A stretch of 40,555 nt of DNA from assembly GCA_004138175.2 (NCBI GenBank), contig RYFE02000044.1, positions 1 to 40,555 on the forward strand, in the 5' to 3' direction. A model generated the notes under the pieces. The model was given only the letters and a program-made list of their open reading frames with translations, did not search any database and was not told where the DNA came from. The position numbers and the translations under genes are program-made. Within the stretch, counting starts at the first letter, position 1. Each line of letters begins with the position of its first letter. This document shows positions 6,303 through 40,458 of this stretch, piece by piece. The stretch is from Chloroflexales bacterium ZM16-3. GTDB taxonomy: Bacteria > Chloroflexota > Chloroflexia > Chloroflexales > Chloroflexaceae.

Positions 6303-6441
6303 TGTGGTGAACAGCTGTATACGCCCTCCCGCCCCTTCCTCTTGTCACCGCGCCCGCTTGCCCCGCCCGCAACTCCTGCTTGTTGCCTACGCTGTCTGCG
6401 CCAAAAGGCCGATGGCCCGCATTTGCTGTGCGGCTACTATG

Positions 6442-6476
6442 TGATTGCAGATTGTAGATTGCAGATTGTAGATTGC
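6442..6476. repeat. attgcagattgtag-family interspersed repeat
   Basis: Alternating attgcag / attgtag heptamers in one orientation, in the 311-bp gap between vapC and the GNAT gene. The same family recurs at seven other loci in the window, mostly at gene edges. The rest of the gap holds no gene; it contains the partial palindromic element at 6535-6567. Confidence 0.8.
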
Positions 6477-6534
6477 CGGGCAGCCCTCATCCCCCCTGCC
6501 TTTGTTTTTCTTTGCGCGGCCTCGGCCAGCCCGC

Positions 6535-7674: not shown

Positions 7675-8766
7675 ATGACCCTCCCGCTGGTACACCTATC
7701 CGGCACCCCCTATGAGCAGGGCCTCCAGCACGGCGAGGCCCTGCGCGAGGCGATCATCGAGAATATGGCGATCTACTTCGCCCGCTTCGAGCGCGAGCTG
7801 CGCCTGACGCGGGCGGAGACTCTGCGCCGCGCCGCCGTCTACGCCGGGGCGATCGAGCGAGAGAGCCCGGCCTACGCGGCGGGCATGCGCGGCGTGGCCG
7901 AGGGCTCCGGCCTCAGCTATAACGAGATCGCCGCCCTGAATGTGCGCTACGAACTGTTCTACTACCAGTTCGGGGTGAACGCCGTCGCCGACGGCTGCAC
8001 CGCTGTCGCCGTGCAGCCCGAGGCTAGCGCCGACGGCCACCTGCTGCTCGGCGAGAACTGGGACTGGGTCTCTGGCGTGCGTGGGGCCGTGCTCCACAGC
8101 CGTGAGCCTGACGGACTTGAGGTGCTCTGCTTCTCGGAGGCCGGCATCGTCGGCGGGAAGATCGGCCTCAACTCGGCCGGCATCGGCCTGCTGATCAACG
8201 GGCTCACCTCGACCGACGACGACTGGGCGCGCCTGCACAAGCCCTTCCACGTCCGCTGCCACGAGATCCTGCGCGCCCACAGCTTCGATGCCGCCACCCG
8301 TGTCGTCACCGAGGGCGACCGCTCCTGCTCAGGCAACTTCGTGATCGCTCAGTCCCCCAACCGGGTGATTAATATCGAGACCTCGCCCCACGCGGCGGCC
8401 ATCACCGGCTGCACGAGCGGCTGCCTGGTTCACGCGAACCACTTCATCAACCCGATCGCCCTCGCCGTCTCTGAGCCGCCGGTCGAGAAGAACCCCCACT
8501 CCTACCGGCGCCTTGAGCGTATGGCCGAGCTGCTTGCCACCCACCGGCCCCTGACCATGGGCGACCTCCAGGCGGCCCTGCGCGATCACCAGGGATACCC
8601 CTACTCGATCTGTTTCCATATCGACCCCGAGGAGCCGCCCGAGGAATACTACGAGAGCGTCATCTCGGCGATCATCGACCTCCGCGCCGGTGCCCTCTAC
8701 CTGAGCGACGGCCCGCCATGCGAGAACTCCTACCAGCGCTACACGATTGCAGATTGCAGATTGTAG
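7675..8766 (+). CDS. C45-family autoproteolytic amidohydrolase/acyltransferase
   Basis: A 363-aa protein of the peptidase C45 / acyl-CoA:6-aminopenicillanate acyltransferase family (Ntn hydrolases). In this family a precursor cuts itself before a Cys, which then becomes the N-terminal nucleophile. The expected junction is seen as VADGCTAVAV with Gly107-Cys108. Other family features are GENWDW near 125, the EAGIVGGKIGLNSAGIGLLI stretch, and LVHANHF near 260. No signal peptide is seen, so it is probably cytoplasmic and acts on an amide or acyl-amine of unknown identity. The last seven residues (TIADCRL) and the stop codon come from an interspersed repeat that begins at 8745, so the native C-terminus has probably been replaced. 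The ATG has a weak AAGGA site. Confidence 0.85.
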   Translation: MTLPLVHLSGTPYEQGLQHGEALREAIIENMAIYFARFERELRLTRAETLRRAAVYAGAIERESPAYAAGMRGVAEGSGLSYNEIAALNVRYELFYYQFGVNAVADGCTAVAVQPEASADGHLLLGENWDWVSGVRGAVLHSREPDGLEVLCFSEAGIVGGKIGLNSAGIGLLINGLTSTDDDWARLHKPFHVRCHEILRAHSFDAATRVVTEGDRSCSGNFVIAQSPNRVINIETSPHAAAITGCTSGCLVHANHFINPIALAVSEPPVEKNPHSYRRLERMAELLATHRPLTMGDLQAALRDHQGYPYSICFHIDPEEPPEEYYESVISAIIDLRAGALYLSDGPPCENSYQRYTIADCRL

Positions 8767-8867
8767 ATTGCAGATTGGGCGCTCCGCCCGAAGGCCGATT
8801 GTGTGATTCAGCCAGATCAGCTATAGTTGTTCTACAATCCACAATCTGCAATCTGCAATCTGCAATC
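8745..8867. repeat. Inverted pair of attgcagattgtag repeats
   Basis: A left array (8745-8777) runs attgcag/attgtag and a right array (8832-8867) is its reverse complement, with about 55 bp between. Together they can form a long stem. The left array supplies the end of the C45 gene. A promoter-like sequence lies in the loop. Confidence 0.8.
8799..8827 (+). promoter_or_regulatory. Candidate promoter of the RIO kinase leader
   Basis: TTGTGT (8799-8804) and TATAGT (8822-8827) are 17 bp apart, between the arms of the inverted repeat. A start near 8834 would give a leader of about 255 nt before the RIO kinase gene. Confidence 0.4.
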
Positions 8868-8882
8868 CCGAAGGAGGCTCAT

Positions 8883-9090: not shown

Positions 9091-10074
9091 ATGGCTCGCT
9101 ATATCATCATCGATAAGTCTCAGATCAACCCAGACGAGGACGCCGCCCCGGCCTACGGAACCCGACACAAGGAGCAGAAGCGCCGCAAGGCCACGGCCCG
9201 CGAGGGTGTGGCCAAGCACAGCTTCGAGTCTAACCCCGACGTGCAGCGCTGGCTGACCGAGGCCCGCGAGGCTGAGGGAGCCAAGGCACCTTTCGCCCCC
9301 GAGGCGCTGGTGGGCCGGCGCGATGGCGAGTGGGTGCTCTCCTCGCTCACCGCCTTTTACGAGCAGGACATGATCGCCGACGTGCTGCGTGAGGTGAAGA
9401 GCGGCAAGGAGGCGACGGTCTTCTGCTGCTCGGGTGGCCCGGCCTGCGCCCACAATCTGCTGGCCGCCAAGGTCTACCGGCCGCGCATGTTCCGCAGCCT
9501 GAGCAACGACGCCCAGTACCGCGAGGGCCGCACGGTGCGCAACGAGTCGGGCAAGCAGGTGAAGCTGACCGGCAAGGGCGTGCCGGGGCGCAACACCGCC
9601 AAGGGCCGCGCCTTCCAGGTGGAGAGCTGGATCGGCTACGAGTATGCCGCCCAGGAGCTGGCCTTCAGCCTCGGCGTGAGCACCCCGCGCCCCTACTCGC
9701 AGGTTGGCAACAGCCTGCTGATGGAGTATATCGGCGATGAGGAGACCGTCGCGCCGCGCCTTTGCGAGATCGATGTAGATCGGGGCGAGGCCCAGAGCCT
9801 GCTCGACGGCCTGCTGGAGAGCATCGAGCTGCTGCTTGGCGGGCACCGCATCCACGGCGACCTGTCCTCCTACAACATCTTGGCCTGGGAGGGCCGCCCC
9901 TACATTATCGACTTCGCCCAGGCGGTGGACCCACGCCACGGCGACGGAGCCCGCGACCTGCTTATCCGCGACGTGGTTCGTGTCGCTGAGGCTCTGGCCC
10001 CCTTCGGCGCCCGCGTGGACGCCCGCGCCGCCGCCGACCGCATGTGGTGGGGCTACCTCGGCCAGCCGACTTGA
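9091..10074 (+). CDS. RIO-family atypical serine protein kinase
   Basis: A 327-aa RIO1-like kinase. The visible features are SGKEATVF (104-111), the ATP-binding Lys127 in LLAAKVYRPRMFRSL, the catalytic loop HGDLSSYNIL (His255, Asp257, Asn262) and the metal-binding IIDFAQ (Asp274). The N-terminal 85 residues are charged and include a basic patch (HKEQKRRKATAR). RIO kinases are best known in archaeal and eukaryotic ribosome maturation; bacterial members are less studied. All key catalytic residues are present. The ATG at 9091 is chosen over an upstream in-frame ATG because GAGGAG precedes it and the longer form would begin before the terminator. Its transcription should depend on read-through of that terminator. 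pth follows 75 bp later. Confidence 0.88.
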   Translation: MARYIIIDKSQINPDEDAAPAYGTRHKEQKRRKATAREGVAKHSFESNPDVQRWLTEAREAEGAKAPFAPEALVGRRDGEWVLSSLTAFYEQDMIADVLREVKSGKEATVFCCSGGPACAHNLLAAKVYRPRMFRSLSNDAQYREGRTVRNESGKQVKLTGKGVPGRNTAKGRAFQVESWIGYEYAAQELAFSLGVSTPRPYSQVGNSLLMEYIGDEETVAPRLCEIDVDRGEAQSLLDGLLESIELLLGGHRIHGDLSSYNILAWEGRPYIIDFAQAVDPRHGDGARDLLIRDVVRVAEALAPFGARVDARAAADRMWWGYLGQPT

Positions 10075-10075
10075 C

Positions 10076-10146
10076 ATTGTAGATTGCAGATTGTAGATTG
10101 CAGATTACGAGTGGCAATCTACAATCTACAATCTGCAATCTGCAAT
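10076..10146. repeat. Inverted attgcagattgtag repeat abutting pth
   Basis: Forward heptamers and their reverse complements form a near-continuous stem with a loop of about 8 nt between the RIO kinase stop and the pth start. It ends four bases before the pth ATG and occupies the place where a ribosome site would be. Confidence 0.85.
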
Positions 10147-10792: not shown

Positions 10793-13729
10793 ATGAGCAA
10801 TCGCGCACTCGCCCCGACGATGGTTGGCCGACAGCAGCCGCTCTCTGAGCTGGCCGAGCACCTGGCCCTGGCTCAGGCCGGTGCCGGTCGGCTGGTGCTG
10901 GTGGCCGGTGAGGCCGGCGTGGGCAAGACGCGACTGCTGCGCGAGTTCGCCCGCAGCCTCGATCTGACGGTCTACACGGGCCACTGCTTCGATGAGCGCC
11001 CGGCCCCGCCCTACGGCCCCTTCGTCGAGCTGCTGCGGGCGGTGGCCCAGGCCCCCGGCGGGCCGTCGCTCGACCAGGCGGCCGGCCCCTGGGCCGATGA
11101 GCTGCGCCGGCTGCTGCCCGAGATTACGCAGCTCGCCCTGGCTGAGCCGCTGGGCAACCTGCCGACTGAGCGGCATCGGCTCTTCCAGGCGATCTACCAG
11201 ACCCTCTGCCCTATCGGCGGCGCGGCCCGCGTGCTGATCGTCGAGGATCTGCACTGGGCCGACGAGGCCAGCCAGGATCTGCTGCACTTCCTGGCCAGGG
11301 TGATCGCGGACGAGCGCATCCTGCTGATCGGCACCTACCGCAGCGATGAGATCAACCGGCTGCACCCGCTCGTCGGACTGATCGCCCGCCTCGTCCGCGA
11401 CCGGCGTTTTCACGAGATCCGCCTAGCCCCGCTGGGCCGGGATGATCTCGCCGAGATGCTCGCCGCCATCCTCGACAAGCCCCCCGCGCCTGATCTGCTC
11501 GCCGCACTCTATGAGCGCACCGAGGGCAACCCCTTCTTCGCCGAGGAGCTGCTCGGGCCGCTGATCGCCGACCAGGGGCGCGGCCTGAGCGATGCGGCGA
11601 TCCCGATCTCGATCCGCGAGAGCGTCCTGCGCCGGGCGGCCGATCTCGACGAGCCCACGGTGACAGTGCTGCGGGCCGCCGCCGTTATCGGCAGGCGCTT
11701 CGACTTCGACCTGCTGCTGAGGCTCACGGGCTTGGGCGAGCGCGCCCTCCTGACCAGCCTCTCGGCCCTGGTGGAGCGCCAGCTGATCGTCGAGACCCCC
11801 GGCGAGGCTGGCGACACCTACAGCTTCCGCCACGAGCTGATCCGCGCCGCGCTCTACGAGGAGATGCTACGCCGCGAGCGGCGCATGCGCCACCAGGAGG
11901 TGCTGCGCGCCCTGGAGGAGCTGCACGCCGACAGCCCCGAGGCTGTAATCGACCTGCTGGCCTACCACGCGATCCAGGCCCGCGCCACGCCCCAGGCCGC
12001 CCGCTACAGCGAACTGGCCGGCGATCGGGCCGCCGCCATCCACGCCTACCGGGCCGCCCTCGGCCACTACGAGGCCGCCCTGGAGGCCGCCGAGCTGGGT
12101 GCCGACGACCCGCGCTGGCGGGCGGATCTGCTCTCGCGGCTCGGCCAGTCGGCCTTCCTGATCGGCGACCTGGCCCGCGCCTCCGGCTACTGGCGCGAGG
12201 CTCTGGCGCTCTACCAGCGGCTCGACGGCACCCATCGGGCCGCCGACACCCAGCGTATGCTCGGGCGGGTCGCCTGGGACCAGGGGAAGCGGGAAGAGGC
12301 ATTCGCCCACGCCCGCGCAGCCCTGGCCACCCTGGAGGGCGCGGGGCCATGCCGCGAGCTGGCCATGGCCTACAGCACCCTCTCGCACCTCTCCATGCTG
12401 CTCATCTCCGAAGATCAGGCCAGCGCCGCCGAGTGCATCGTCTGGGGCGAGCGGGCCTTGGCCATGGCCCGCCAGCTCGATGACCGGGCGGCGATCTGCC
12501 ACGCGCTGAACAATATCGGCGTCGCCAAGGTCGAGTCAGGCCAGGCCGAGGCAGGCATCGCCAACCTGGAGCATAGCCTGGCGATCGCCCTCGACGCCGA
12601 CCTGCCGGCCGACGCGGTGCGGGCCTACCTCAACCTTGGCGGCAAGCTCTCCCAGGTCGGGCGGCACGACGACAGCCTGGCCCTACAGCACGAGGGGCTG
12701 GCGTACGCGGCCCGCCACGGCTACATCCGCGGCAGCGGCAAGCTCTTCGGCGTGCTGGTCTATGGCCTGTTTGAGGCCGGCCGCTGGGATGAGGCCGACG
12801 CGCTGCTGGCGGATGCGCTGCGCCCGAGCTTCCCCTGCCTGCTCGATGATGGCGGGCTGGCCATGTATATGCGCGCACGTATGCTGTGGGCGCGCAATCG
12901 CCTGGCCGAGTCGCGCGGGCTGCTGGAGCACCTGATCGACGGCGACCCTGAGACCGCCATCCTCGCCACGGGCATGCTGATATTTATCCACCGCGCCCAG
13001 GACGATCTGGTGCGCGCCGAGGCGCTCGCCGACCGCATGGTTGCGCAGGCGCGCGACAGGGCCGGCATCGCTCCCGACTCGCTCGCCCTCGGCAGGCTGG
13101 CCTTTACGCTCACCGCGCCGGTCGAGATCTACCTGGACGTGGGCCGCCGCAACGAGGCGCTGGCCCTGATCGCGGCGATGGAGACGAGCAAGGTCGCCGA
13201 CTCAGCCAGCTACGAGGCGGCGATACTCGCTGAGCTGCGGGGCGCGACCGATATGGAGCAGAGCCCCCGCCGCGCCGCCGAGCACTTCGCGGCGGCGGCC
13301 GCATTCTGGAAGCAGAGAGGCGCCGTGCCCGATGTGGTGCGCCTCGGCCGTCGGCAGGCCCAGGCCCTGCTGCGCTGCGACGGCGCGGACGCGCGCGCCC
13401 AGGCCCGCCAGCTCATCGCGGAGGCCCGCGCCATCGCCGAGCCGATCGGCTACGCCTACGAACGGGCCAAGCTCGACGCCCTGGAGCCGCCCGCCCCCGC
13501 CCGCGCCCACCCCGCCCCGCGCTCGCCCGATGGCCTCACCCCCCGCGAGCTGGAGGTGCTGGCGCTGATCACCCGTGGCCTCTCCAACCGCGCCATCGCC
13601 GAGGCTCTGGTGATCTCCGAGAAGACCGCCGAGGTTCATGTGCGCAACATCCTCGCCAAGCTCGGCTTCAGCTCGCGCACCCAGGCCGCCACCTACGCGG
13701 TCGAGCGCGGCCTGTCCCCGAGGGCGTAG
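10793..13729 (+). CDS. MalT-like AAA/TPR regulator with LuxR DNA-binding domain
   Basis: A 978-aa large ATP-dependent regulator (LAL/MalT class). The N-terminal AAA-like domain has the Walker A GEAGVGKT (39-46) and Walker B VLIVEDLHWADE (near 146). The middle, about residues 390-880, is Ala/Leu-rich helical repeat of the tetratricopeptide type, which senses ligands or partners in this class. The C-terminus, about 914-975, is a LuxR/FixJ helix-turn-helix: LTPRELEVLALITRG, then SEKTAEVHVRNILAKLGF. It should bind DNA after ATP- and signal-dependent assembly. Its target genes are not evident from the neighbourhood. The stop codon TAG lies within a palindromic repeat. A weak TTGACG at 10741 could be a -35, about 50 bp before the start. 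Confidence 0.9.
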   Translation: MSNRALAPTMVGRQQPLSELAEHLALAQAGAGRLVLVAGEAGVGKTRLLREFARSLDLTVYTGHCFDERPAPPYGPFVELLRAVAQAPGGPSLDQAAGPWADELRRLLPEITQLALAEPLGNLPTERHRLFQAIYQTLCPIGGAARVLIVEDLHWADEASQDLLHFLARVIADERILLIGTYRSDEINRLHPLVGLIARLVRDRRFHEIRLAPLGRDDLAEMLAAILDKPPAPDLLAALYERTEGNPFFAEELLGPLIADQGRGLSDAAIPISIRESVLRRAADLDEPTVTVLRAAAVIGRRFDFDLLLRLTGLGERALLTSLSALVERQLIVETPGEAGDTYSFRHELIRAALYEEMLRRERRMRHQEVLRALEELHADSPEAVIDLLAYHAIQARATPQAARYSELAGDRAAAIHAYRAALGHYEAALEAAELGADDPRWRADLLSRLGQSAFLIGDLARASGYWREALALYQRLDGTHRAADTQRMLGRVAWDQGKREEAFAHARAALATLEGAGPCRELAMAYSTLSHLSMLLISEDQASAAECIVWGERALAMARQLDDRAAICHALNNIGVAKVESGQAEAGIANLEHSLAIALDADLPADAVRAYLNLGGKLSQVGRHDDSLALQHEGLAYAARHGYIRGSGKLFGVLVYGLFEAGRWDEADALLADALRPSFPCLLDDGGLAMYMRARMLWARNRLAESRGLLEHLIDGDPETAILATGMLIFIHRAQDDLVRAEALADRMVAQARDRAGIAPDSLALGRLAFTLTAPVEIYLDVGRRNEALALIAAMETSKVADSASYEAAILAELRGATDMEQSPRRAAEHFAAAAAFWKQRGAVPDVVRLGRRQAQALLRCDGADARAQARQLIAEARAIAEPIGYAYERAKLDALEPPAPARAHPAPRSPDGLTPRELEVLALITRGLSNRAIAEALVISEKTAEVHVRNILAKLGFSSRTQAATYAVERGLSPRA

Positions 13730-13752
13730 GGGCGCGTTGCGACGCGCCCCTA
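13727..13752. repeat. Palindrome of the taggggcgc type, overlapping a stop codon
   Basis: taggggcgcgt (13727-13737) and acgcgccccta (13742-13752) form an 11-bp stem with a 4-nt loop. The first three bases are the stop codon of the regulator gene. It is related to the palindromes at 14080, 20374, 29488 and 37559 and may act as a terminator. Confidence 0.75.
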
Positions 13753-13894
13753 CGGGAATCCCCTTACGCCTCTGGTCCTACCCCCTGATCGCCGACAGAT
13801 CAGAATATACCTGACCCCGTCGATGCGCCTGCGCCCCGCAACCGCTACCATAGGCTCAGTGGCGAGATGCCTGTTGGTGAAGCGAGGTAGAACC

Positions 13895-19110: not shown

Positions 19111-19138
19111 TTGACAGCACCTTGCTTCATGCTATAGT
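19111..19138 (+). promoter_or_regulatory. Promoter of the polyprenyl synthase gene
   Basis: A perfect TTGACA (19111-19116) and TATAGT (19133-19138) are 16 bp apart. The start would be near 19145, giving a leader of about 140 nt that contains the whole shared element at 19178-19272. Confidence 0.65.
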
Positions 19139-19177
19139 AATATTGTGTCGAATATCACAATCTCTGCGCTCCGTGGA

Positions 19178-19284
19178 CAGAACAACTGAGCCGGTCGGAT
19201 CAAAGCGCGAGCGCAGCGAGCCACCAGCTTCCGTGCCTCAGTGACTCACGCATTCCGCTCAGTCCTATAGGAAGGAACAGCCTG
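19178..19284 (+). promoter_or_regulatory. Conserved leader element, copy 1 (polyprenyl synthase)
   Basis: Positions 19178-19272 align without gaps to 39601-39695, 78 of 95 identical. The longest identical block covers 22 nt and begins cgcgagcgcagcgagcc; others are gtgcctcagtg, gctcagt and ctatagga. The element ends at the ribosome site, and the ATG follows 12 nt later. No known riboswitch class was recognised. Confidence 0.7.
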
Positions 19285-20364
19285 ATGGCTGCGTACCAAA
19301 TCAACTCGCCCCTATCAGATACCGAGGTGCCCGTGAGCACAATACCTGGAGGCAACAACAAGCGCTACGCCCAGCAGCGAATCTCCCAGGGTACCGGCCT
19401 CCTCGATCTCTTCGAGCGAGCGAACCTGACAGCCGATCTCCGCGCCGTCGAGGATCTGCTGCTAGAACGCTCGCGCTCGCGCTCCGAGCTGATCACCGCA
19501 GCCAGCATCCACACTGTGCGCTCGGGCGGCAAGCGCCTGCGGGCGGCAATGGCCCTCCTGGCCGCGCAGCTGGGCAGCTACCAGCTCAGCAACGTCATCC
19601 ACGCCGCAGCCTCGGCTGAGCTGATCCACGCCGCATCCCTCGTCCACGACGACCTCGTCGACCAGGCGGCCCGCCGGCGCGGCCGCGTCACGGTACACAC
19701 CCGCTGGGACAACGACGTGGCCCTGATGGTGGGCGACTACTTCTTCGCCCTGGCCGCCGCCGAGATGTCGCTCAGCCCCGACCCGCGCATCATCACCTTC
19801 TACGCCCAGGCCGTGCAGACGATCGTCGAGGGCGAGCTCAGCCCGGTGATGGTGGCCGAGCCCGCAGAGACGGCCCTGAGCCAGTACTTCTACAAGACGG
19901 GGGCCAAGACGGCGGTGCTCTTCGAGGCGGCATGCAAGGCCGGGATGGCGGCTGGCGGCGGCGACGATGCCCAGACCAACGCGCTCGGCGCCTACGGCTT
20001 CGATGTCGGCATCGCCTTCCAGATCGTGGACGATGTCCTCGACTTCATCGGCGACGAGGACACCCTCGGCAAACCGGCGGGCAACGACCTGCGCCAGGGC
20101 ACGATCACGCTGCCCCTGATCTACGCCCTTGAGGCGACCGGCAGCCCGCTGCTGCGGGCGCTTATCGAGCAGGACGCGCCAGATGATGCCGCCGTGGAGG
20201 CCGCCATCGCCGAGGTGCGCACTGCTGGCGGGGTCGATGCGGCCATGGCCGAGGCCCGCCGCTACATCGCCCAGGCCATCGGCCACCTGGATGTCTTCCC
20301 CGACACGCCCGCCCGCCGCGCCCTGATTGACCTGACCCTCTTCGTCGTCGAGCGGGAATCATAA
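19285..20364 (+). CDS. Long-chain trans-polyprenyl diphosphate synthase
   Basis: A 359-aa prenyltransferase that adds isopentenyl units to an allylic diphosphate. Both Mg2+-binding Asp-rich motifs are present: DDLVD (122-126) and DDVLD (249-253), with GGKR at 81-84 for IPP binding. The residues before the first motif (IHAASLVH) are small, as in enzymes that make long chains for quinones or lipid carriers rather than the bulky residues of short-chain enzymes. The N-terminal about 35 residues are extra and polar. AGGAAGGAA precedes the ATG. It is transcribed alone, with its own promoter and the shared leader element, and ends at a palindrome. The product is probably a quinone side chain or undecaprenyl-like chain, which cannot be decided here. 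Confidence 0.9.
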   Translation: MAAYQINSPLSDTEVPVSTIPGGNNKRYAQQRISQGTGLLDLFERANLTADLRAVEDLLLERSRSRSELITAASIHTVRSGGKRLRAAMALLAAQLGSYQLSNVIHAAASAELIHAASLVHDDLVDQAARRRGRVTVHTRWDNDVALMVGDYFFALAAAEMSLSPDPRIITFYAQAVQTIVEGELSPVMVAEPAETALSQYFYKTGAKTAVLFEAACKAGMAAGGGDDAQTNALGAYGFDVGIAFQIVDDVLDFIGDEDTLGKPAGNDLRQGTITLPLIYALEATGSPLLRALIEQDAPDDAAVEAAIAEVRTAGGVDAAMAEARRYIAQAIGHLDVFPDTPARRALIDLTLFVVERES

Positions 20365-20373
20365 AGAGGCGCA

Positions 20374-20403
20374 CGTAGGGACGCAGCGCGCTGCGTCCCT
20401 ACG
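20374..20403. repeat. Perfect 30-bp palindrome between convergent genes
   Basis: cgtagggacgcagcg is followed directly by its reverse complement. The same core is at 29488-29519. It separates the convergent polyprenyl synthase and PAS-STAS genes and may terminate both. Confidence 0.85.
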
Positions 20404-24950: not shown

Positions 24951-25071
24951 GCGGATCTTTTAAAGTATCCCATCGCCTCTCCATGTCACGCTGAGCGCAG
25001 CGAAGCGTCCCGGTCGGGACGCTTCGCTGCGCTCAGCGTGACATGGGGCCGGGATACTTTAAAAGATCCGC
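24951..25071. repeat. Nested palindromic element, copy B
   Basis: Outer arms 24951-24971 and 25051-25071 are perfect 21-bp complements. Inside is a perfect 31-bp hairpin (24981-25011 with 25016-25046, 4-nt loop) of the ctgagcgcagcgaagcg type. It lies in the 382-bp gap between the ubiB-like and cyclase genes. Confidence 0.9.
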
Positions 25072-28362: not shown

Positions 28363-29493
28363 ATGGCACAGCAGGTGACAGAAATACCCGACCTGACCGT
28401 CGAGGCGCTGCGGGCCTTGGCCGCCGAGGTCATGCAGATCGACGATGTACGGCTCGACCGGCGGGGCAATCTTGTCTCGCCGCGATTCATCGGGCGGCTG
28501 CGTATGGAGGCCCAGGCCGCCCACGACGCGGTATCCCCGCGCTTTCAGGCGCTGGGCTACACGGCGCTGCTCCAGGATGAGCGCGAGGGCGTGGCCCTAG
28601 AGGCGCTGCCGGGCCTGTTCAACCCCGCGCCCTCACGGCTCTGGGTCGCCCTGCTGCTCTTCGCCCTCACCATCGCCTCCACCTTCGCCGTCGGCAGCCA
28701 GGATCTTGTAGATGGGCAGCCGGTCTTCAACCTGGGCTACGGGCTCTCGTACAGCGCGGCCCTGCTGGGTATCCTGCTGGCCCACGAGCTCGGCCACTAT
28801 ATCGTAGCCCGGCGGGCCGGCGTGGCGGTGAGCTACCCCTTCTTCATCCCGCTGCCCCCGCCGATCGGCATCCTCGGCACCATGGGCGCATTCATCTCGA
28901 TCAAGGAGCCGGTGCCCAACCGGCGCACGCTGCTGGCCATCGCCGCCGCCGGCCCGCTGGCCGGCCTGGCCGTCACCATCCCCGTCCTGCTGATCGGCCT
29001 GAGCCTCTCCGAGGTTCATAGCGTGGCCGCGATGCACCAGGCGATGCCTGGCCAGATGTACTTCACCGAGGGCAACTCGCTGATCTACGCGGCCGCCAAG
29101 CTGCTCATCTTTGGGCGAGCGCTGCCGGGCGGCGGCGAGGATGTGTTTCTGCACCCGGTGGCCATGGCGGGCTGGGCGGGGCTGCTCGTCACCGGGCTGA
29201 ACCTCATCCCCGCCGGGCAGCTCGACGGCGGGCACATCTTCTTCTCCCTGTTCGGCCCGCGCGTCGCCCAGATCGTCAGCATGATCATCGCCGCGCTGCT
29301 GCTCGCCATGGGCTTCATCTGGAGCGGCTGGTTCCTCTGGGCGGTGCTGGTGGCCCTGCTCGGCCGCGCCCGCGCGCCCCTGCGCAACGAGGTGACGCCG
29401 CTTGAGGGGCCGTGGCGGCTGCTGGCTGTCGCCGGCCTGCTCGTCTTCATCCTCGTCTTCACCCCGGTGCCGATCACCATTGTGACGCCGTAG
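28363..29493 (+). CDS. M50-family site-2-type membrane metalloprotease
   Basis: A 376-aa intramembrane protease. A cytosolic domain of about 90 residues is followed by several membrane segments. The zinc site HELGH is at 141-145 (LLAHELGHYIVARRAGV) and the third ligand is in LIPAGQLDGGHIF (Asp288). Between them is PYPFF-like SYPFFIPLPPPIG and a Gly-rich GTMGAFISIKEP, as in plant EGY-like and cyanobacterial/Chloroflexota S2P relatives. Such enzymes cut membrane-bound regulators such as anti-sigma factors. No PDZ domain is seen. The stop TAG sits inside a perfect 32-bp palindrome. It reads through its own promoter; the FAH gene lies 84 bp downstream. Confidence 0.9.
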   Translation: MAQQVTEIPDLTVEALRALAAEVMQIDDVRLDRRGNLVSPRFIGRLRMEAQAAHDAVSPRFQALGYTALLQDEREGVALEALPGLFNPAPSRLWVALLLFALTIASTFAVGSQDLVDGQPVFNLGYGLSYSAALLGILLAHELGHYIVARRAGVAVSYPFFIPLPPPIGILGTMGAFISIKEPVPNRRTLLAIAAAGPLAGLAVTIPVLLIGLSLSEVHSVAAMHQAMPGQMYFTEGNSLIYAAAKLLIFGRALPGGGEDVFLHPVAMAGWAGLLVTGLNLIPAGQLDGGHIFFSLFGPRVAQIVSMIIAALLLAMGFIWSGWFLWAVLVALLGRARAPLRNEVTPLEGPWRLLAVAGLLVFILVFTPVPITIVTP

Positions 29494-29519
29494 GGACGCA
29501 GCGCGCTGCGTCCCTACGG
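29488..29519. repeat. Perfect 32-bp palindrome supplying the M50 stop codon
   Basis: ccgtagggacgcagcg and its reverse complement meet without a loop. TAG at 29491-29493 is the M50 stop. The core equals that at 20374-20403. Confidence 0.9.
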
Positions 29520-30773: not shown

Positions 30774-32195
30774 TCACGTGTTTGTTGGGATGTGGGTGCG
30801 CCGCGCGATCCCTTCGTCGATGGCGGCCTGGGCCACTGCCGCCGCGATCGCCGGGACGACGTGGCGGTTAAAAACGCTGGGGATGATATACTCCTCGCTC
30901 ACCTCATCGGGCGGGATCACCCCGGCCAGAGCCTCGGCGGCGGCAAGCCGCATCCCTGAGGTCATCTTTTGGGCGTGAACATCCAGGGCGCCACGGAAGA
31001 TGCCAGGGAAGCTCAGCACATTGTTGATCTGGTTGGGCTGATCTGAGCGCCCGGTGGCCACCACGCGGGCATACTGCCGCAGCATGTCGGGGTCGCCCTC
31101 GGGCACTGGGTTGGCCAGGGCGAAGACGATCGCGTTCCACGCCATGCTCTGGATCATCTCTGGGCTGAGGATGTTGCCGCGCGAGACGCCAATAAACACA
31201 TCGGAGCCAGCCATGGCGTCGGCCAAGTCGCCCCGCCGCTGGTCGCGGTTGGTCTGCGAGGCGATGATCCGCTGCATCGGCGTCTGGAGGGCGTCGTCGC
31301 CGCTGCGGATGATCCCGTGGCGGTCGACGGCGATAACATCACCGATGCCAGCCTCAAGCAGGGCGCGGATGATCGCCGTGCCGGCCGCACCCACGCCGTT
31401 CACCACGGCGCGCACATCTTTGATCTGCTTGCCCGCCAGGAGCAAGGCGTTGCGCAGGGCGGCGAGCACCACCACCGCCGTGCCGTGCTGGTCGTCGTGC
31501 ATAACGGGGATGTCCAGGCTCTCGTGGAGCCGCCCCTCGACGAGGAAGCAGCTCGGCGAGGCGATATCCTCCAGGTTGATCCCGCCGAAGCTGGGCGCAA
31601 TCTGCTCGACCGTCTGCACGATGATGTCGGGGTCCTGCGAGCGCAGGCAGATCGGCACGGCGTCGATGTCGGCCAGCTCCTTGAAGAGGATGGCCTTGCC
31701 CTCCATCACCGGCATGGCCGCCTCGGGGCCAAGGTTGCCCAGGCCGAGGATGGCGCTGCCGTCGCTCACCACCGCCACGCTGTTGCGCTTCCATGTGTAG
31801 GTGAATGCCTTGGCGGGATCGTTGGCGATCGCCGTGCAGACACGGGCGACGCCGGGGGTGTAGGCGATCGAGAGGTCATCGCGGGTCTTGAGCGGCACGC
31901 GGCTCTGCATGGCCAGCTTGCCGCCCAGGTGGGCCAGCAGGATGCGGTCGCTCACCCGGATGACACGGGCGCCGGGCACGGCGTTGATCGCGCCGGCGAG
32001 CCGTTCGCCGCGCTCCTCATCGTGAACGCGCACGGTGATGTCGCGCACCAGCAGGTTGCGCTCGGCGCGGACGATGTCGATCGCGCCGATATCACCGCCG
32101 ATATCGCCGATGACGGTGGCGATACGGCCGAGCATGCCCGGCTGGTTATCGATCTCGCAGCGCAGAGTCAGTGTGTAGGATACTCCGACGGACAT
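30774..32195 (-). CDS. NAD-type malic enzyme with N-terminal ACT domain
   Basis: A 473-aa enzyme that decarboxylates malate to pyruvate with NAD(P)+. Residues about 5-85 form an ACT-like domain (LRCEIDNQPGMLGRIATVIG) that may bind an amino acid regulator. The malic core follows: SIAYTPGVARVC with the catalytic Tyr, WKRNSVAVVSDGSAILGLG, VMEGKAILFKEL, the metal-binding VMHDDQHGTAVV, the nucleotide fold VVNGVGAAGTAII and LANPVPEGDP. The ATG at 32195 is chosen because AAGGGAGAC precedes it and the ACT domain begins there; a longer frame upstream runs through repeat sequence and an antisense gene start. ACT-malic enzymes are common in bacteria. It is divergent from the hydrogenase-like operon. Confidence 0.92.
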   Translation of the reverse strand: MSVGVSYTLTLRCEIDNQPGMLGRIATVIGDIGGDIGAIDIVRAERNLLVRDITVRVHDEERGERLAGAINAVPGARVIRVSDRILLAHLGGKLAMQSRVPLKTRDDLSIAYTPGVARVCTAIANDPAKAFTYTWKRNSVAVVSDGSAILGLGNLGPEAAMPVMEGKAILFKELADIDAVPICLRSQDPDIIVQTVEQIAPSFGGINLEDIASPSCFLVEGRLHESLDIPVMHDDQHGTAVVVLAALRNALLLAGKQIKDVRAVVNGVGAAGTAIIRALLEAGIGDVIAVDRHGIIRSGDDALQTPMQRIIASQTNRDQRRGDLADAMAGSDVFIGVSRGNILSPEMIQSMAWNAIVFALANPVPEGDPDMLRQYARVVATGRSDQPNQINNVLSFPGIFRGALDVHAQKMTSGMRLAAAEALAGVIPPDEVSEEYIIPSVFNRHVVPAIAAAVAQAAIDEGIARRTHIPTNT

Positions 32196-32208
32196 ATGTC
32201 TCCCTTTC

Positions 32209-32277
32209 GATTGCAGGTTGTAGGTTGCAGATTGTAGATTGCAGATTGCAGTGATGGTTTCAATCTGCAATCTGCAA
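32209..32277. repeat. Inverted attgcagattgtag repeat
   Basis: Forward heptamers (with some ggttg variants) and a shorter reverse-complement array lie in the divergent space just before the malic enzyme ribosome site. Confidence 0.8.
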
Positions 32278-32368: not shown

Positions 32369-33439
32369 GTGAGCTACACCCTGACGCTTGAGCCGGCCGC
32401 GGCTGCCTGGCGTGGCCCCCAGCAGCTGGTGCTGAAGGTTGCCGCCGAGCGAGTTGCCGATGTAGAGTATCGCCTGGATCTGCCCACGCGCCCGCGCGCC
32501 GCCGGCAAGCCCGCCCTGCTCCAGGAGGTTGCCCGCATCTGCCCAACATGCACACACGCCCACAGCCTGGCCTTCTCGCTGGCGGTCGAGTCGCTGCTGG
32601 GCCGTGATGCGCCGCCGCGCGCCGCCCGGTTGCGTCTGGTCGCCGCCGAGCTTGAGCGGGCCGTCTCGCACCTGGTCACCCTGGACGCGATCTTTGTCAC
32701 TATGGGAATGACGCATCTGGCGGCATCTCTGGCTGGGCTGCGCGATACGGCTGCGCAGGGGATGGCCTTGCTGGCCGGTGCCCCCGATGGCGGCGCGCTC
32801 ATCCTGCCGGGCGGCCTGCGCCGCGACCTGTCCGACGATGAGCGCCTCGGGCTACGCCAGCTGCTCTCTGGCGCGAGCCGACGGCTCTACCAGCTTGCCG
32901 ACTCGGTGATTGACCAGCGGCTCATCCTGGCCCGCACGGTGGAGGTGGGCGTCCTAAGCGGCTCGGCGGTGACGCAGTTTGGCCTGCACGGCCCGCTGGC
33001 CAGGGCCTCGGGCATCACGGAAGATGTGCGCCTAGACACGCCCTATGGCGCCTACGGCGATCTGTCGCCCCAGCTGATCACCCAGGAGAGCGGCGATGTC
33101 TACGCCCGGCTAGTGCTGCTGCTGCTTGAGGCGCTAGAGAGCCTCAAGCTGAGCGACCGGGCGCTGGAGGATCTGCCCGATGGCCCGCTGAGCGCCCAGA
33201 TGCCGGCCAGCCTGCCGGAGGGCGAGGGCGTAGCCACGGTGGAGGCGCCCAGGGGGGCGCTGCGCTACCGCGTCGAGAGCGACGGGCGACGGATCAGCGG
33301 CTACCAGGCCGATCCGTCACCGCAGCTCGACCGCCTGCTGGCCAGGACGATCCTCAGCCGGGCCGCGCTCGATGACGTGGTGCTAATCGCGCTCTCGACC
33401 GACCCGTGTAGCGCGTGTCAGGGGGCGAGCGGCGAGTGA
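32369..33439 (+). CDS. Group 4 [NiFe]-hydrogenase-like large subunit (NuoD/EchE/HycE-related)
   Basis: A 356-aa protein, the length of EchE/CooH-type large subunits. The first metal motif is RICPTCTHAHS: Cys58, Cys61 and His65 in the spacing of the family's RxCGICxxxH, but with Pro-Thr in place of Gly-Ile. The last is STDPCSACQG: Cys347 and Cys350 in the place of DPCxxC, with Gln-Gly after it in place of the usual basic or His position. All four Ni-ligand cysteines are therefore present, unlike in NuoD. Internal matches include RLRLVAAELERAVSHL and DTPYGAYGDL. It begins with GTG after GGGAG and its own -10. It is followed by four membrane subunits. No electron-transfer subunit is in the window. 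Function could be H2-linked or a different redox reaction. Confidence 0.8.
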   Translation: MSYTLTLEPAAAAWRGPQQLVLKVAAERVADVEYRLDLPTRPRAAGKPALLQEVARICPTCTHAHSLAFSLAVESLLGRDAPPRAARLRLVAAELERAVSHLVTLDAIFVTMGMTHLAASLAGLRDTAAQGMALLAGAPDGGALILPGGLRRDLSDDERLGLRQLLSGASRRLYQLADSVIDQRLILARTVEVGVLSGSAVTQFGLHGPLARASGITEDVRLDTPYGAYGDLSPQLITQESGDVYARLVLLLLEALESLKLSDRALEDLPDGPLSAQMPASLPEGEGVATVEAPRGALRYRVESDGRRISGYQADPSPQLDRLLARTILSRAALDDVVLIALSTDPCSACQGASGE

Positions 33440-33482
33440 TTGCAGATTGCAGATTACTGATTGCAGATTGCAGATTGCAGAT
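33438..33482. repeat. attgcag-family repeat after the large subunit
   Basis: Repeated gattgcag units, with one gattactg variant, start within the TGA stop of the large subunit and occupy the first third of the 121-bp junction. The rest of the junction shows nothing clear. Confidence 0.8.
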
Positions 33483-33560
33483 GGACACCCTCGCATCCTC
33501 GCGTAATCCGCAATACGGCGCATTCCCAACTAGGATGCCAAGTCTGCACTTGTACCATAT

Positions 33561-37554: not shown

Positions 37555-37558
37555 GGAA

Positions 37559-37583
37559 GGGACGCAGCACGCTGCGCCCCTAC
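37559..37583. repeat. Degenerate gggacgcagc palindrome
   Basis: gggacgcagc-acgctgcgcccctac is a decayed member of the family at 20374 and 29488. It fills the junction between the HyfF- and NuoH-like genes and abuts the next start. Confidence 0.65.
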
Positions 37584-37591
37584 GAGTGGTG

Positions 37592-38413
37592 ATGGATATT
37601 CTGAGCATAATCCTGGCGGGCCTGATGTACCCCGGCCTGATCACGGCGCTGGCCCTGGGTCTGCTCTACCGGCTGCTGCTGACTGGCGCGGCCCCGAGGG
37701 TGCGTCCCGGCGCGGCCCTGGGATCGCGCGAGGGGCTGGCCGCACTGGCGGGCATTCTGTCCGCCGCTGCGGGGCTGGCCGCGCTGCCCTGGCCTTTCCA
37801 CCCGGCGGGCGCGCCTCGCGCATGGCTGTGGGCATGGGCTGGCCTGGAGCTAGCCTTTCTGCTGCCGCTCGTTCCGGCCCTGGCCTCCGGCGTGCCGAAG
37901 GTCGCGCGGGCCGCCATCCGTCGCGCGCAGATCGGCGTCTTTGGGCGAACGCTGCTCTGGGCGGCAATGGCCACCGGGCTGACGACCCATGCCTCCTGGG
38001 GGCTGAACGCGCTGCCGGCCCACCTGCTGGCCCTCGTCGCCACCGTGATCGCCTTCCCAATCGCGATTGGCTGGGGGCCGTTTGACGATGAGGTCAGCGT
38101 CACCGGGGCTGGCGTACAGGCCGGCCTACCGCCAGAGCTGCGGCAGATCGATGACCTTGCGCGCGACGTGGCATCGGGCGCGCTGCTGGCCGCTGCGCTG
38201 CTGGCCACGCTACCCACCGGAGTTGGGCCAGCCTGGCTCGCGACGATCATGATCGTCGCCGGGTTTACTGCGGCCACCGTCGCCATGCGCCGCCTGAGCG
38301 GTCGGCTGCCGCGCCTGTCGCTGCCGGCCATCCTGCGGCTCGGCTGGGCCTACGCGGCACCGCTCGCCGCCGCGGCCGCTGTCGCCCTGATCATCGCCGG
38401 GAGACTTGCGTAG
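37592..38413 (+). CDS. NuoH/HyfC-like membrane subunit
   Basis: A 273-aa protein with about eight membrane segments. In complex I and membrane hydrogenases this subunit sits next to the large subunit and couples it to the membrane arm. Visible family features are the N-terminal LAGLMYPGLITALALGLLYR, the Arg-rich loop PKVARAAIRRAQIG and the loop WGPFDDEVSVTGAGVQAGLP followed by ELRQIDDLARDVAS, in the place of NuoH's FD-x-x-EAE...E loop; only part of the acidic pattern is kept. ATG at 37592 is chosen; a GTG two codons earlier is also possible. No ribosome site is visible because a decayed palindrome lies upstream. Confidence 0.75.
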   Translation: MDILSIILAGLMYPGLITALALGLLYRLLLTGAAPRVRPGAALGSREGLAALAGILSAAAGLAALPWPFHPAGAPRAWLWAWAGLELAFLLPLVPALASGVPKVARAAIRRAQIGVFGRTLLWAAMATGLTTHASWGLNALPAHLLALVATVIAFPIAIGWGPFDDEVSVTGAGVQAGLPPELRQIDDLARDVASGALLAAALLATLPTGVGPAWLATIMIVAGFTAATVAMRRLSGRLPRLSLPAILRLGWAYAAPLAAAAAVALIIAGRLA

Positions 38414-38415
38414 CG

Positions 38416-38438
38416 CAATTGCAGATTGCAGATTGCAG
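38416..38438. repeat. Short attgcag-family repeat
   Basis: Three attgcag units between the NuoH-like gene and the ABC ATPase gene. Confidence 0.75.
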
Positions 38439-38450
38439 ACGGAGTGTGGT

Positions 38451-39593
38451 GTGAGCACGGATGTCGCCGATGTGATCGAGATCGAGGATCTGTCTAAGTC
38501 GTACGGCAACCTACAGGTGATCAATGGCCTGAGCCTGCGGGTGGCCGCAGGTGAGGTCTATGGGCTCCTCGGGCCGAACGGCGTCGGCAAATCGACTCTG
38601 CTGCATCTGATCCTGGGCTTCCTCAAGCCAACCTCGGGCCGCCTGCGCGTCCTGGGCAGCAGCAACCTCGATTCCACGCGGGCACAGATCGGCTACATCC
38701 CCGAGCGACAGCGCTACCATACACGCTACAGCGCCCGCGAGTACCTAAGCTTTATCGGCAAGTTTAGCGGCATGCATGGGCACGACCTGATCACCCGCGT
38801 CGAGCAGGAGCTTCAGACAGTCGGCCTCGATATGGATGCCGACCGCACGATGGGCACCTTCTCAAAGGGGATGCTCCAGCGGGTTGGTGTGGCCCAGGCG
38901 CTGCTCTGCGACCCAGCCCTGCTCCTGATCGATGAGCCAACCAGTGGACTCGACCCGGTCGGCCAGCGCGAGGTGATCGACCTGCTGGGCAAGCTGCGCG
39001 ACCGCGGACACACGGTGTTTCTCTGCACCCACTACCTGCACGAGATCGAGCAGCTCTGCGACCGGGTGGGTGTGCTGACCGGGGGTAAGATTGCGGTTGA
39101 GGCGCGGGTGAGAGACCTGCGAGCGCCCGGCGGCAGCGTGATGATCGAGGTTGATGCCATCAGCACCGAGCTGCGCGGGAGCCTACAGGCCATCAGCCGG
39201 GGGGTGAGCTGCGACGCACGCACGGTGCGAATCAGGCAGAACACGCCGCAGATCCAAGCGACGGTGCTGCACCGGCTGCTCGATGCCGGGGCGGCGATCA
39301 TCGCGCTTGAGCCGATGGAGAGCCCGCTTGAGCAGCTCTATGTGCGGGCGGTGCGCGGCACCTCCGCTGCCCAGCAGCCACCCAATCTGCTGATGGGAAC
39401 GCTGGAGCCGCCGCCAATACTCCCTCGCGGCCCCAGCGTCGCGCCGGAGTACGCCGCTCCCTCCTCACCCCTCGTGCGCCAGCCAGGCGAGGGCGATACG
39501 CTGCTCAACGAGCTGCTTCGTCGGGGCGGCAGTCAGGACTCCTCGGAGTCGGGGGATGGGAGTCGGGAGTCTGGGGACGGGGGTAATTTATAG
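38451..39593 (+). CDS. ABC transporter ATP-binding protein
   Basis: A 380-aa ATPase of the CcmA/ABC-2 exporter type. Walker A is GPNGVGKS, the Q loop follows in IGYIPERQRYH, the signature is TFSKGMLQRVG (S-K-G-M rather than SGGQ), Walker B is LLLIDEPTSGLDP and the switch His is in FLCTHYLHEIEQL. After the domain (about residue 230) comes a regulatory segment, then a Pro-rich linker. The last about 18 residues (SSESGDGSRESGDGG) are encoded by an interspersed repeat. GTG at 38451 follows CGGAG. The matching permease is downstream, so they should form an exporter. The cluster may continue the hydrogenase-like operon, since the junction is only 37 bp. Substrate unknown. Confidence 0.9.
   Translation: MSTDVADVIEIEDLSKSYGNLQVINGLSLRVAAGEVYGLLGPNGVGKSTLLHLILGFLKPTSGRLRVLGSSNLDSTRAQIGYIPERQRYHTRYSAREYLSFIGKFSGMHGHDLITRVEQELQTVGLDMDADRTMGTFSKGMLQRVGVAQALLCDPALLLIDEPTSGLDPVGQREVIDLLGKLRDRGHTVFLCTHYLHEIEQLCDRVGVLTGGKIAVEARVRDLRAPGGSVMIEVDAISTELRGSLQAISRGVSCDARTVRIRQNTPQIQATVLHRLLDAGAAIIALEPMESPLEQLYVRAVRGTSAAQQPPNLLMGTLEPPPILPRGPSVAPEYAAPSSPLVRQPGEGDTLLNELLRRGGSQDSSESGDGSRESGDGGNL
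39538..39590. repeat. ggagtcgggggatggga array coding the ABC ATPase tail
   Basis: Degenerate ggagtcgggg/gatgggagtc units at the 3' end of the ATPase gene, in frame. They match the family inserted in the DUF4838 gene at 17940. Confidence 0.8.
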
Positions 39594-39600
39594 CGGCGGG

Positions 39601-39705
39601 CAGAAGGATTGAGCCTGTCATAGAAAGGCGCGAGCGCAGCGAGCCACCAGGTTCAGTGCCTCAGTGGCTCAAACATGCTGCTCAGTGCTATAGGAGCGAG
39701 GGCGT
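39601..39705 (+). promoter_or_regulatory. Conserved leader element, copy 2 (ABC permease)
   Basis: Aligned without gaps to 19178-19272 over 95 nt (78 identities), ending at the permease ribosome site; ATG follows 10 nt later. In this copy gagccac pairs perfectly with gtggctc, with agg/cct inside, giving a stem-loop. Copy 1 has mismatches in both helices. It lies between two ABC genes that should share a transcript. Confidence 0.7.
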
Positions 39706-40458
39706 ATGCGCACGCTACGGTTTACCGGCTTCACACTGCTTGAGTATATTCGCTCTGGCCGGGTCGCTCTTGAGATTATCGCCACGCTGATCGTCTACTT
39801 TGTGTTTCTGCGCCGGGTCGGCCTGGGTATGAACGCCGAGTACTTCTTCAGCGTCACCGGGGTCTACACGCCGGCGCTCACGCTCTACACCACGGCGGCG
39901 TTTATCGGCATCGGAGACCGGCCACAGGGATACGTGCTGCTCTCGCGCGGGCTGAGCCGGGCCAGCTACTTGCTAGGGATCTTCTTCAGCGCGCTGGTGA
40001 TTGTCGCTGGCTCCTACGGGCTACTCTCGACCCTGGCAGCCCTGTTCAACGGCCCACCAGACCTGGATTTTATCGGGTGGATGCTGGGCACGCTGCCGCT
40101 GCTGCTGAATGTCGGGCTGCTGTCCGCCCTGATGATCATGCTCTCGCCACTAGTCTTCGCCACAAGCTGGCGGCTGTTTGTGCTCGGCCTGATCGCCCTG
40201 GCCTTCTCTAGCAACTTCATCGGCGGGCCGCTGCTCGAGTCACTGCCACCGATAGTGCGAACCCTCCTGCACGCGGCGCAGGCTGTGCTCGGCGGGCCGC
40301 TGGTGCCAGCCTTCTATGGCTTCCAGCTGGCCGTCACCCGCGACTATACAACGGGCACCGCCGTGGCCAACCTGTTCGCCCAGACATCGCTTCTGATCTC
40401 GCTGCTCGGCCTGGCGATCTACTCCTTCTCGCGGCGGGATCTGATCTTTAGCAGCTAG
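39706..40458 (+). CDS. ABC-2-type transporter permease
   Basis: A 250-aa membrane protein with six predicted helices and no clear catalytic motif, in the size range of ABC-2 permeases. The N-terminus RFTGFTLLEYIRSGRVALEI is the typical start of these subunits, with the amphipathic segment before the first helix. It follows the ATPase gene by 112 bp in the same direction, and this context makes the assignment. The ribosome site (TAGGAG) and the 95 nt before it belong to the shared leader element. It probably forms a homodimer or, with a further subunit beyond the window, a heterodimer. Confidence 0.8.
   Translation: MRTLRFTGFTLLEYIRSGRVALEIIATLIVYFVFLRRVGLGMNAEYFFSVTGVYTPALTLYTTAAFIGIGDRPQGYVLLSRGLSRASYLLGIFFSALVIVAGSYGLLSTLAALFNGPPDLDFIGWMLGTLPLLLNVGLLSALMIMLSPLVFATSWRLFVLGLIALAFSSNFIGGPLLESLPPIVRTLLHAAQAVLGGPLVPAFYGFQLAVTRDYTTGTAVANLFAQTSLLISLLGLAIYSFSRRDLIFSS

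Follow-up and report, generated by a model that had tools for sequence, protein, structure and literature searches.

A TA-flanked mobile repeat, best read as a non-autonomous IS630 derivative, lies ahead of two unrelated genes in Chloroflexales bacterium ZM16-3

The window analysed here is a 40,555-nt stretch of contig RYFE02000044.1 (positions 1 to 40,555) from Chloroflexales bacterium ZM16-3, whose genome (G000) amounts to 6.27 Mb. Within it, 19178-19272 and 39601-39695 are identical at 78 of 95 positions without a gap, and these segments end 12 nt and 10 nt upstream of ATG codons at 19285 and 39706, respectively. Both observations reproduce the original prediction exactly. No other near match to the first segment (copy 1) was found on either strand of the window, the next best ungapped alignment reaching 43 of 95 positions.

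Copy 1 (19175-19270, plus strand; 82% identity over query positions 11-106 in a BLAST comparison to the family consensus described below) is the older of the two and its left terminus is unrecognisable. A polyprenyl synthetase gene (19285-20364, plus strand; PF00348, E 2e-63) lies downstream, as had been proposed, and copy 1 separates its promoter from its ribosome site. The promoter-like site, TTGACA-N16-TATAGT at 19111-19138 on the plus strand, is host sequence outside the element, and its counterpart is conserved in the sister genome G004. The ribosome site GGAAGGA (19270-19276, plus strand) is likewise host sequence and is also present in G004. Directly 3′ of the -10 hexamer, at 19141-19162, there is an operator-like host palindrome, TATTGTG-N8-CACAATC (core ATTGTG-N8-CACAAT), which we take to resemble a CRP/FNR-type operator. 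G004 and G005 have a perfect version, GATTGTG-N8-CACAATC, at this promoter. At one mismatch or fewer the window palindrome was the sole match in G000, and ten such sites were found in G005. The palindrome is a better candidate than the element for conserved control at the polyprenyl synthase promoter.

Copy 2 is full length (39589-39693, plus strand; 97% identity to the consensus). It consists of a TA at 39589-39590, the element at 39591-39690 and a second TA at 39691-39692, followed by G. Upstream lies an ABC ATPase reading frame (38406-39593; PF00005), for which a TAG in the left terminus of the element (39591-39593, plus strand) now serves as stop codon. Downstream are the ribosome site GGAGCGAG (39693-39700, plus strand), which is host sequence and was also found in G004, and a gene of 250 amino acids (39706-40458, plus strand) that had no match in Pfam or NCBIfam. 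Of the two gene identities originally given, polyprenyl synthase was confirmed, but the only basis for calling the second gene an ABC permease is its ABC ATPase neighbour.

Other repeats were also noted in the window. A 14-nt unit (GATTGCAGATTGTA and variants) forms short tandem arrays in both orientations at 6429-6485, 8738-8880, 10054-10146, 32195-32265 and 33424-33494. A 30-nt palindrome, CGTAGGGACGCAGCGCGCTGCGTCCCTACG, occurs at 20374-20403, 29489-29518, 13725-13754 and 37555-37584, with two of the four instances identical, and looks like another dispersed repeat. A long hairpin at 24951-25071, with 90% complementarity in its 41-nt inner arms and 71% over wider arms of 52 nt, is perhaps another small mobile repeat; a stretch similar to it, judged by eye, interrupts a copy of the element on contig C59 of G000.

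When copies were aligned, the family unit was about 100 nt between TA steps, with the layout CTATAGCGGCGGGCAGA...TTGAGCCTGTCAT...GCGCGAGCGCAGCGAGCCACCAG...TTCAGTGCCTCAGTGGCTCAAGCATGCTGCTCAGTGCTATAG. The 95-nt match therefore stands, but the repeat is longer than that match and has dozens of further copies. Its inverted termini are imperfect (CTATAGCGGCGGGCAGA...TTGAGCC on the left, GGCTCAA...GCTCAGTGCTATAG on the right, with TA on both flanks), and they agree with 15 (left) and 14 (right) of the 15 fixed positions of TAGC-N3-GGGCA-N6-TTGAGC. A BLAST search of G000 with copy 1 gave at least 41 matches, the best 40 of 139 first-look candidates having been scored. With the consensus and E values up to 1 there were at least 43 (best 40 of 192 candidates scored), two of which were weak (E 0.3 and 0.6). 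The fetched G000 loci contained 23 full-length copies. At up to 3 mismatches, the 19-position right terminus was found at 61 sites in G000, against 1 for the reversed pattern, and the left terminus at 38 against 11 with up to 2 mismatches and at 21 against 0 with up to 1. Among 65 matched pieces, which are not 65 insertions since an interrupted copy can account for two of them (C59, C36:18935/19040), 31 were on the plus strand.

Thirty aligned copies from two species, comprising 22 of the 23 full-length G000 copies (a 129-nt copy was excluded) and 8 of the 20 G004 matches, had a mean identity of 88%. As identity spanned 71% to 100%, both old and recent copies are present. Family matches were found in 5 of 41 genomes sampled from the same genus, family and order, including the genome itself: G000, G004 and G002 from the genus, and G024 and G018 from other genera. 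G002 and G018 had one partial match apiece. An exact search for the core pattern in a named genome collection, from which ZM16-3 itself may be absent, detected it in only five contigs of Oscillochloris sp. ZM17-4. The family is young and patchy in its distribution.

TA adjoined all 34 left and all 49 right termini in the fetched loci, TA being part of the matched consensus. The base 5′ of the left TA was C in 22 cases, T in 10, A in 1 and G in 1 (C/T in 32 of 34), and the base 3′ of the right TA was G in 37, A in 7, T in 3 and C in 2 (G/A in 44 of 49), giving a target preference of C/T-TA-G/A. IS630 itself reportedly prefers TA within CTAG, according to one published study.

Empty sites were sought by comparing 13 joined loci with five sister genomes; apart from the four loci named next, they gave one flank or low-complexity matches only. 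Two clean empty sites were found, both in G004 and both uninterrupted. One corresponds to the copy on contig C13 (TCCC-TA-GATAGAG) and the other to window copy 2 (CT-TA-GGAGCG, within TTAGGAGCG). The places of a copy on C95 and of window copy 1 also lack the element in G004, where divergence of the DNA obscures the exact join. Judged by eye, the copies at C41:65402 and C24:22889 look common to both species, and the worn, right-end-only piece at C54:9913 in G000 has an intact counterpart at the apparently orthologous place in G004; some right-end-only pieces are worn copies. The element moves, and its target is TA.

The sister genomes also settle the origin of the sequences next to the window copies. 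At the copy 2 junction, TTAGGAGCGAGGGCGTATG in G004 and GAATAGGAGGAGAG in G002, the stop codon of the preceding gene runs directly into the ribosome site. Because the site TTAGGAGCG is uninterrupted in a sister genome, the copy 2 ribosome site belongs to the host gene. At copy 1, G004 shares the promoter and GGAAGGA, and the DNA that separates them there is unrelated. The element was absent from all three readable orthologous leaders for copy 1 (G004, G005, G002; the contigs of G001 and G003 end before the leader) and from all four for copy 2 (G004, G003, G005, G002). A mobile repeat that carries a ribosome site had been offered as the second possibility. The mobile repeat is borne out, but it carries no ribosome site: the GGAG is located beyond the terminus, and sister genomes that lack the element have it too.

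The preferred reading at the outset had been a cis-regulatory leader RNA or translational operator, here of a small regulon, and it was to be abandoned if many copies lay in varied positions and orientations or if paired bases were not conserved. Both window copies do lie 5′ of a ribosome site, and the plus strand of copy 2 folds better than shuffled sequences (z -3.19). However, the plus strand of copy 1 folds no better than shuffles (z +1.26), another full copy is ordinary (z -0.89), and the minus strands of copy 2 and copy 1 gave z -1.68 and z -1.31. RNAalifold on the 30 aligned copies returned a covariation term of -0.04, with two-sided change in 1 of 24 predicted pairs. The end-to-end stem of the element, in which 94.6% of 614 cells were paired, had two pairs with two-sided change, a count that was attained in 49 of 500 shuffles and surpassed in 2 of 6 slid versions; covariation thus did not go beyond controls. 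Paired ends are in any case expected from transposon end repeats. No Rfam match was found in the window at gathering score, a result that bears on described RNA families only. In addition, the dozens of copies lie on both strands and in varied gene contexts, the stop codon of the adjoining gene falls within 19 of the 60 pieces that have a terminus (out of 65), and none of the readable orthologous leaders holds the element. The element shows no sign of RNA selection; we give the regulatory reading very little probability, and as a conserved regulator it counts as refuted.

The position of the copies relative to genes is less easily explained. Genes, as assigned by a simple codon-score caller rather than by annotation, contained 366 of the 556 YTAR sites that were free in the fetched loci, yet no full-length copy among the 23 reached more than 30 nt into one. 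The depletion test was run with a cautious 1 of 23 inside a gene. The copy at C40:167181 may split a gene, and a partial copy at C1:259386 overlaps a called one. Nine of the 23 full-length copies end 10-23 nt 5′ of a start codon, against 80 of 1411 free intergenic TA sites and 15 of 189 free intergenic YTAR sites with a start codon at 8-25 nt. These free sites come from the loci chosen for holding copies, and the distance ranges (6-24 nt from the match end for copies, 8-25 nt from TA for free sites) differ by 1-2 bases. This enrichment is the only feature that a neutral account does not fully explain, and it accounts for the leader-like look of the two window copies.

The enrichment could also indicate that some copies of the MITE were later used as leader modules, serving as an RNase III processing site, a gene-decoupling spacer or an outward promoter. 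Comparable behaviour has been reported for Correia copies before mtrCDE in the part of PMC10969869 that deals with them. However, only 3 of 17 copies examined in G004 and G024 end close 5′ of a start codon, and the orthologous genes of sister species have leaders without the element. As for a promoter carried by the element, its right end has TGCTATAG, and the one promoter-like site that the scan placed near copy 2 (39721-39750) is inside the downstream gene. We consider later use of this kind unlikely. A more specific form of the idea, in which copies inserted at stop/ribosome-site junctions inside operons were retained at ribosome sites as ready-made leaders, supplying a new stop codon on the 5′ side and a hairpin leader on the 3′ side, seems quite improbable. 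If leader modules of this sort did exist, adjacent genes at many genomic sites would have their translation uncoupled by them.

The MITE reading calls for a transposase. Duplication of a TA target by an IS630-family transposase is described in the portion of PMC2170065 concerned with target sites. In G000 and its copy-rich relative G004, which are drafts in 127 and 180 contigs, no PF13358 (DDE_3) or transposase match was found. Repeated insertion sequences are easily missing from draft assemblies. Since no transposase was found in either genome, the partner was inferred from other genera. IS630-type DDE_3 genes occurred in 19 of the 41 family genomes examined. Most of their loci had other ends or none that could be recognised, and IS630 elements of other lineages within this family end differently. 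Exceptions were three IS630-family elements, each about 1.01 kb long and bounded by TATA (G021:C405, G021:C485 and G012:C37). Their ends are TATAGC-N3-GGGCA-N6-TTGAGC with at most two changes, and both the letters and the spacing are as in the MITE left end. The six ends score 13, 15, 15, 14, 15 and 15 of 15, beside 15 and 14 for the left and right ends of the MITE, on a signature that was defined after the MITE and these three elements had been seen, so that the independent cases are a G042 end and the more distant insertion sequences. The former belongs to a truncated insertion sequence (G042:C387) whose opening 17 nt match the MITE without a difference and precede a frame like both transposase parts. 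The more distant insertion sequences mostly scored 11-13 of 15, as did the best chance matches in shuffled loci, and some had no such end. In G024, the ends of a diverged relative of the element reached no more than 10 and 5 of 15. Short elements with similar termini and other interiors were found in G021 (about 129 nt) and G041 (105 nt).

Each of the three G021 and G012 elements has two reading frames, and the scanned one (G021:C485) encodes an HTH domain (PF01710) and a DDE part (PF13358). In the IS630 elements at L194 1033-2045, L212 1034-2045 and L211 925-1937, the two transposase frames meet at an A run (CGCAAAAAAAGTC), an arrangement that appears to be as in programmed frameshifting; the similar protein of G042 is in one frame. 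A search with this transposase across the order gave matches in 16 of 82 genomes, and none in G000 or G004. Two left ends 1.2 kb apart on C59 of G000 (30672 and 31859) had been considered as a parent transposon, but the stretch was found to contain two separate elements and host DNA, with no transposase among its reading frames. The first element (G000:C59:30672-30884; L111 1673-1885) is a single copy split by another hairpin-like repeat of more than 100 nt, a case of small repeats nested in one another.

The matching ends also bear on a further alternative, in which the element would be a REP/BIME-type repeat mobilised by a tyrosine transposase of the RAYT type, or belong to another repeat class that does not duplicate TA. 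Such repeats would likewise be short, intergenic and present in many copies; REPs reportedly carry a GTAG/CGTC tag, according to one published study. However, TA lies on both sides of the element, the corresponding TA sites are uninterrupted in a relative, and the ends are common to the element and a DDE-type IS630 lineage. We regard this alternative as exceedingly improbable.

A MITE of about 100 nt, of IS630 type, mobilised in trans by an IS630-type transposase and inserted before two unrelated genes very probably accounts for the shared sequence. We read the family as most likely a non-autonomous derivative of IS630, the partner of which may have been lost, be missing from the draft or reside in another strain. 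An IS630/Tc1-mariner-type transposase would have recognised the termini TAGC-N3-GRGCA-N6-TTGAGC and pasted copies into the TA of C/T-TA-G/A sites, duplicating the TA. We infer mobilisation by the lineage seen in G021 and G012, and selection against insertions in genes; insertions within genes would mostly have been lost, leaving copies in intergenic gaps, often at a stop codon or 5′ of a ribosome site. Copy 2 split TTAGGAG, the junction of stop codon and ribosome site, at its TA, and copy 1, between promoter and ribosome site, lengthens the polyprenyl synthase leader. Points against the MITE account are the lack of a transposase match in G000 and G004, the late definition of the end signature and its poor fit in more distant insertion sequences and in G024, the start-codon enrichment and, at copy 1, the unrecognisable left terminus and the inexact empty site in the G004 leader.

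The closest analogue in kind, though not in sequence, is RUP of Streptococcus pneumoniae, a member of a different phylum. The description in part of PMC2229807 gives RUP as a 107-bp intergenic element of 108 copies that targets TA and has terminal repeats like those of the IS630 transposon IS630-Spn1, by which it is thought to be mobilised. RUP and the Chloroflexales element share a length of about 100 bp, intergenic location, multiple copies, a TA target and IS630-like ends. Unlike RUP, the Chloroflexales element had no resident partner that we could find, and its terminal repeats are imperfect and about 24-28 bp long rather than 9 bp (PMC2229807, in part). At about 107 and 155 bp, the Correia (NEMIS) elements of Neisseria have TA at their ends and 24-bp terminal repeats, as stated in the same portion of PMC2229807. 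In the section of PMC10969869 on these elements, copies are often just 5′ of genes, one lies just 3′ of the mtrCDE promoter, as window copy 1 does at its own promoter, and copies are reported with promoters, an IHF site and RNase III cleavage, some affecting expression. IS630/Tc1-mariner transposons such as ISY100 duplicate a TA target (PMC2170065, in part), in agreement with the TA flanks of the element, and the termini of one lineage in related Chloroflexales share its end signature. The element differs from them in having no transposase gene and about one tenth of the length.

The element constitutes a new MITE family of a well-known kind of bacterial repeat; a literature search of limited reach detected no earlier report of it. 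A leader motif shared by genes of one genome can derive from a mobile repeat, and comparison with sister genomes settles its origin. The finding adds an IS630-type MITE family from Chloroflexales, together with its likely partner transposons, and the copies that provide stop codons or lie at ribosome sites are natural test cases for the effects of small transposons on operons.
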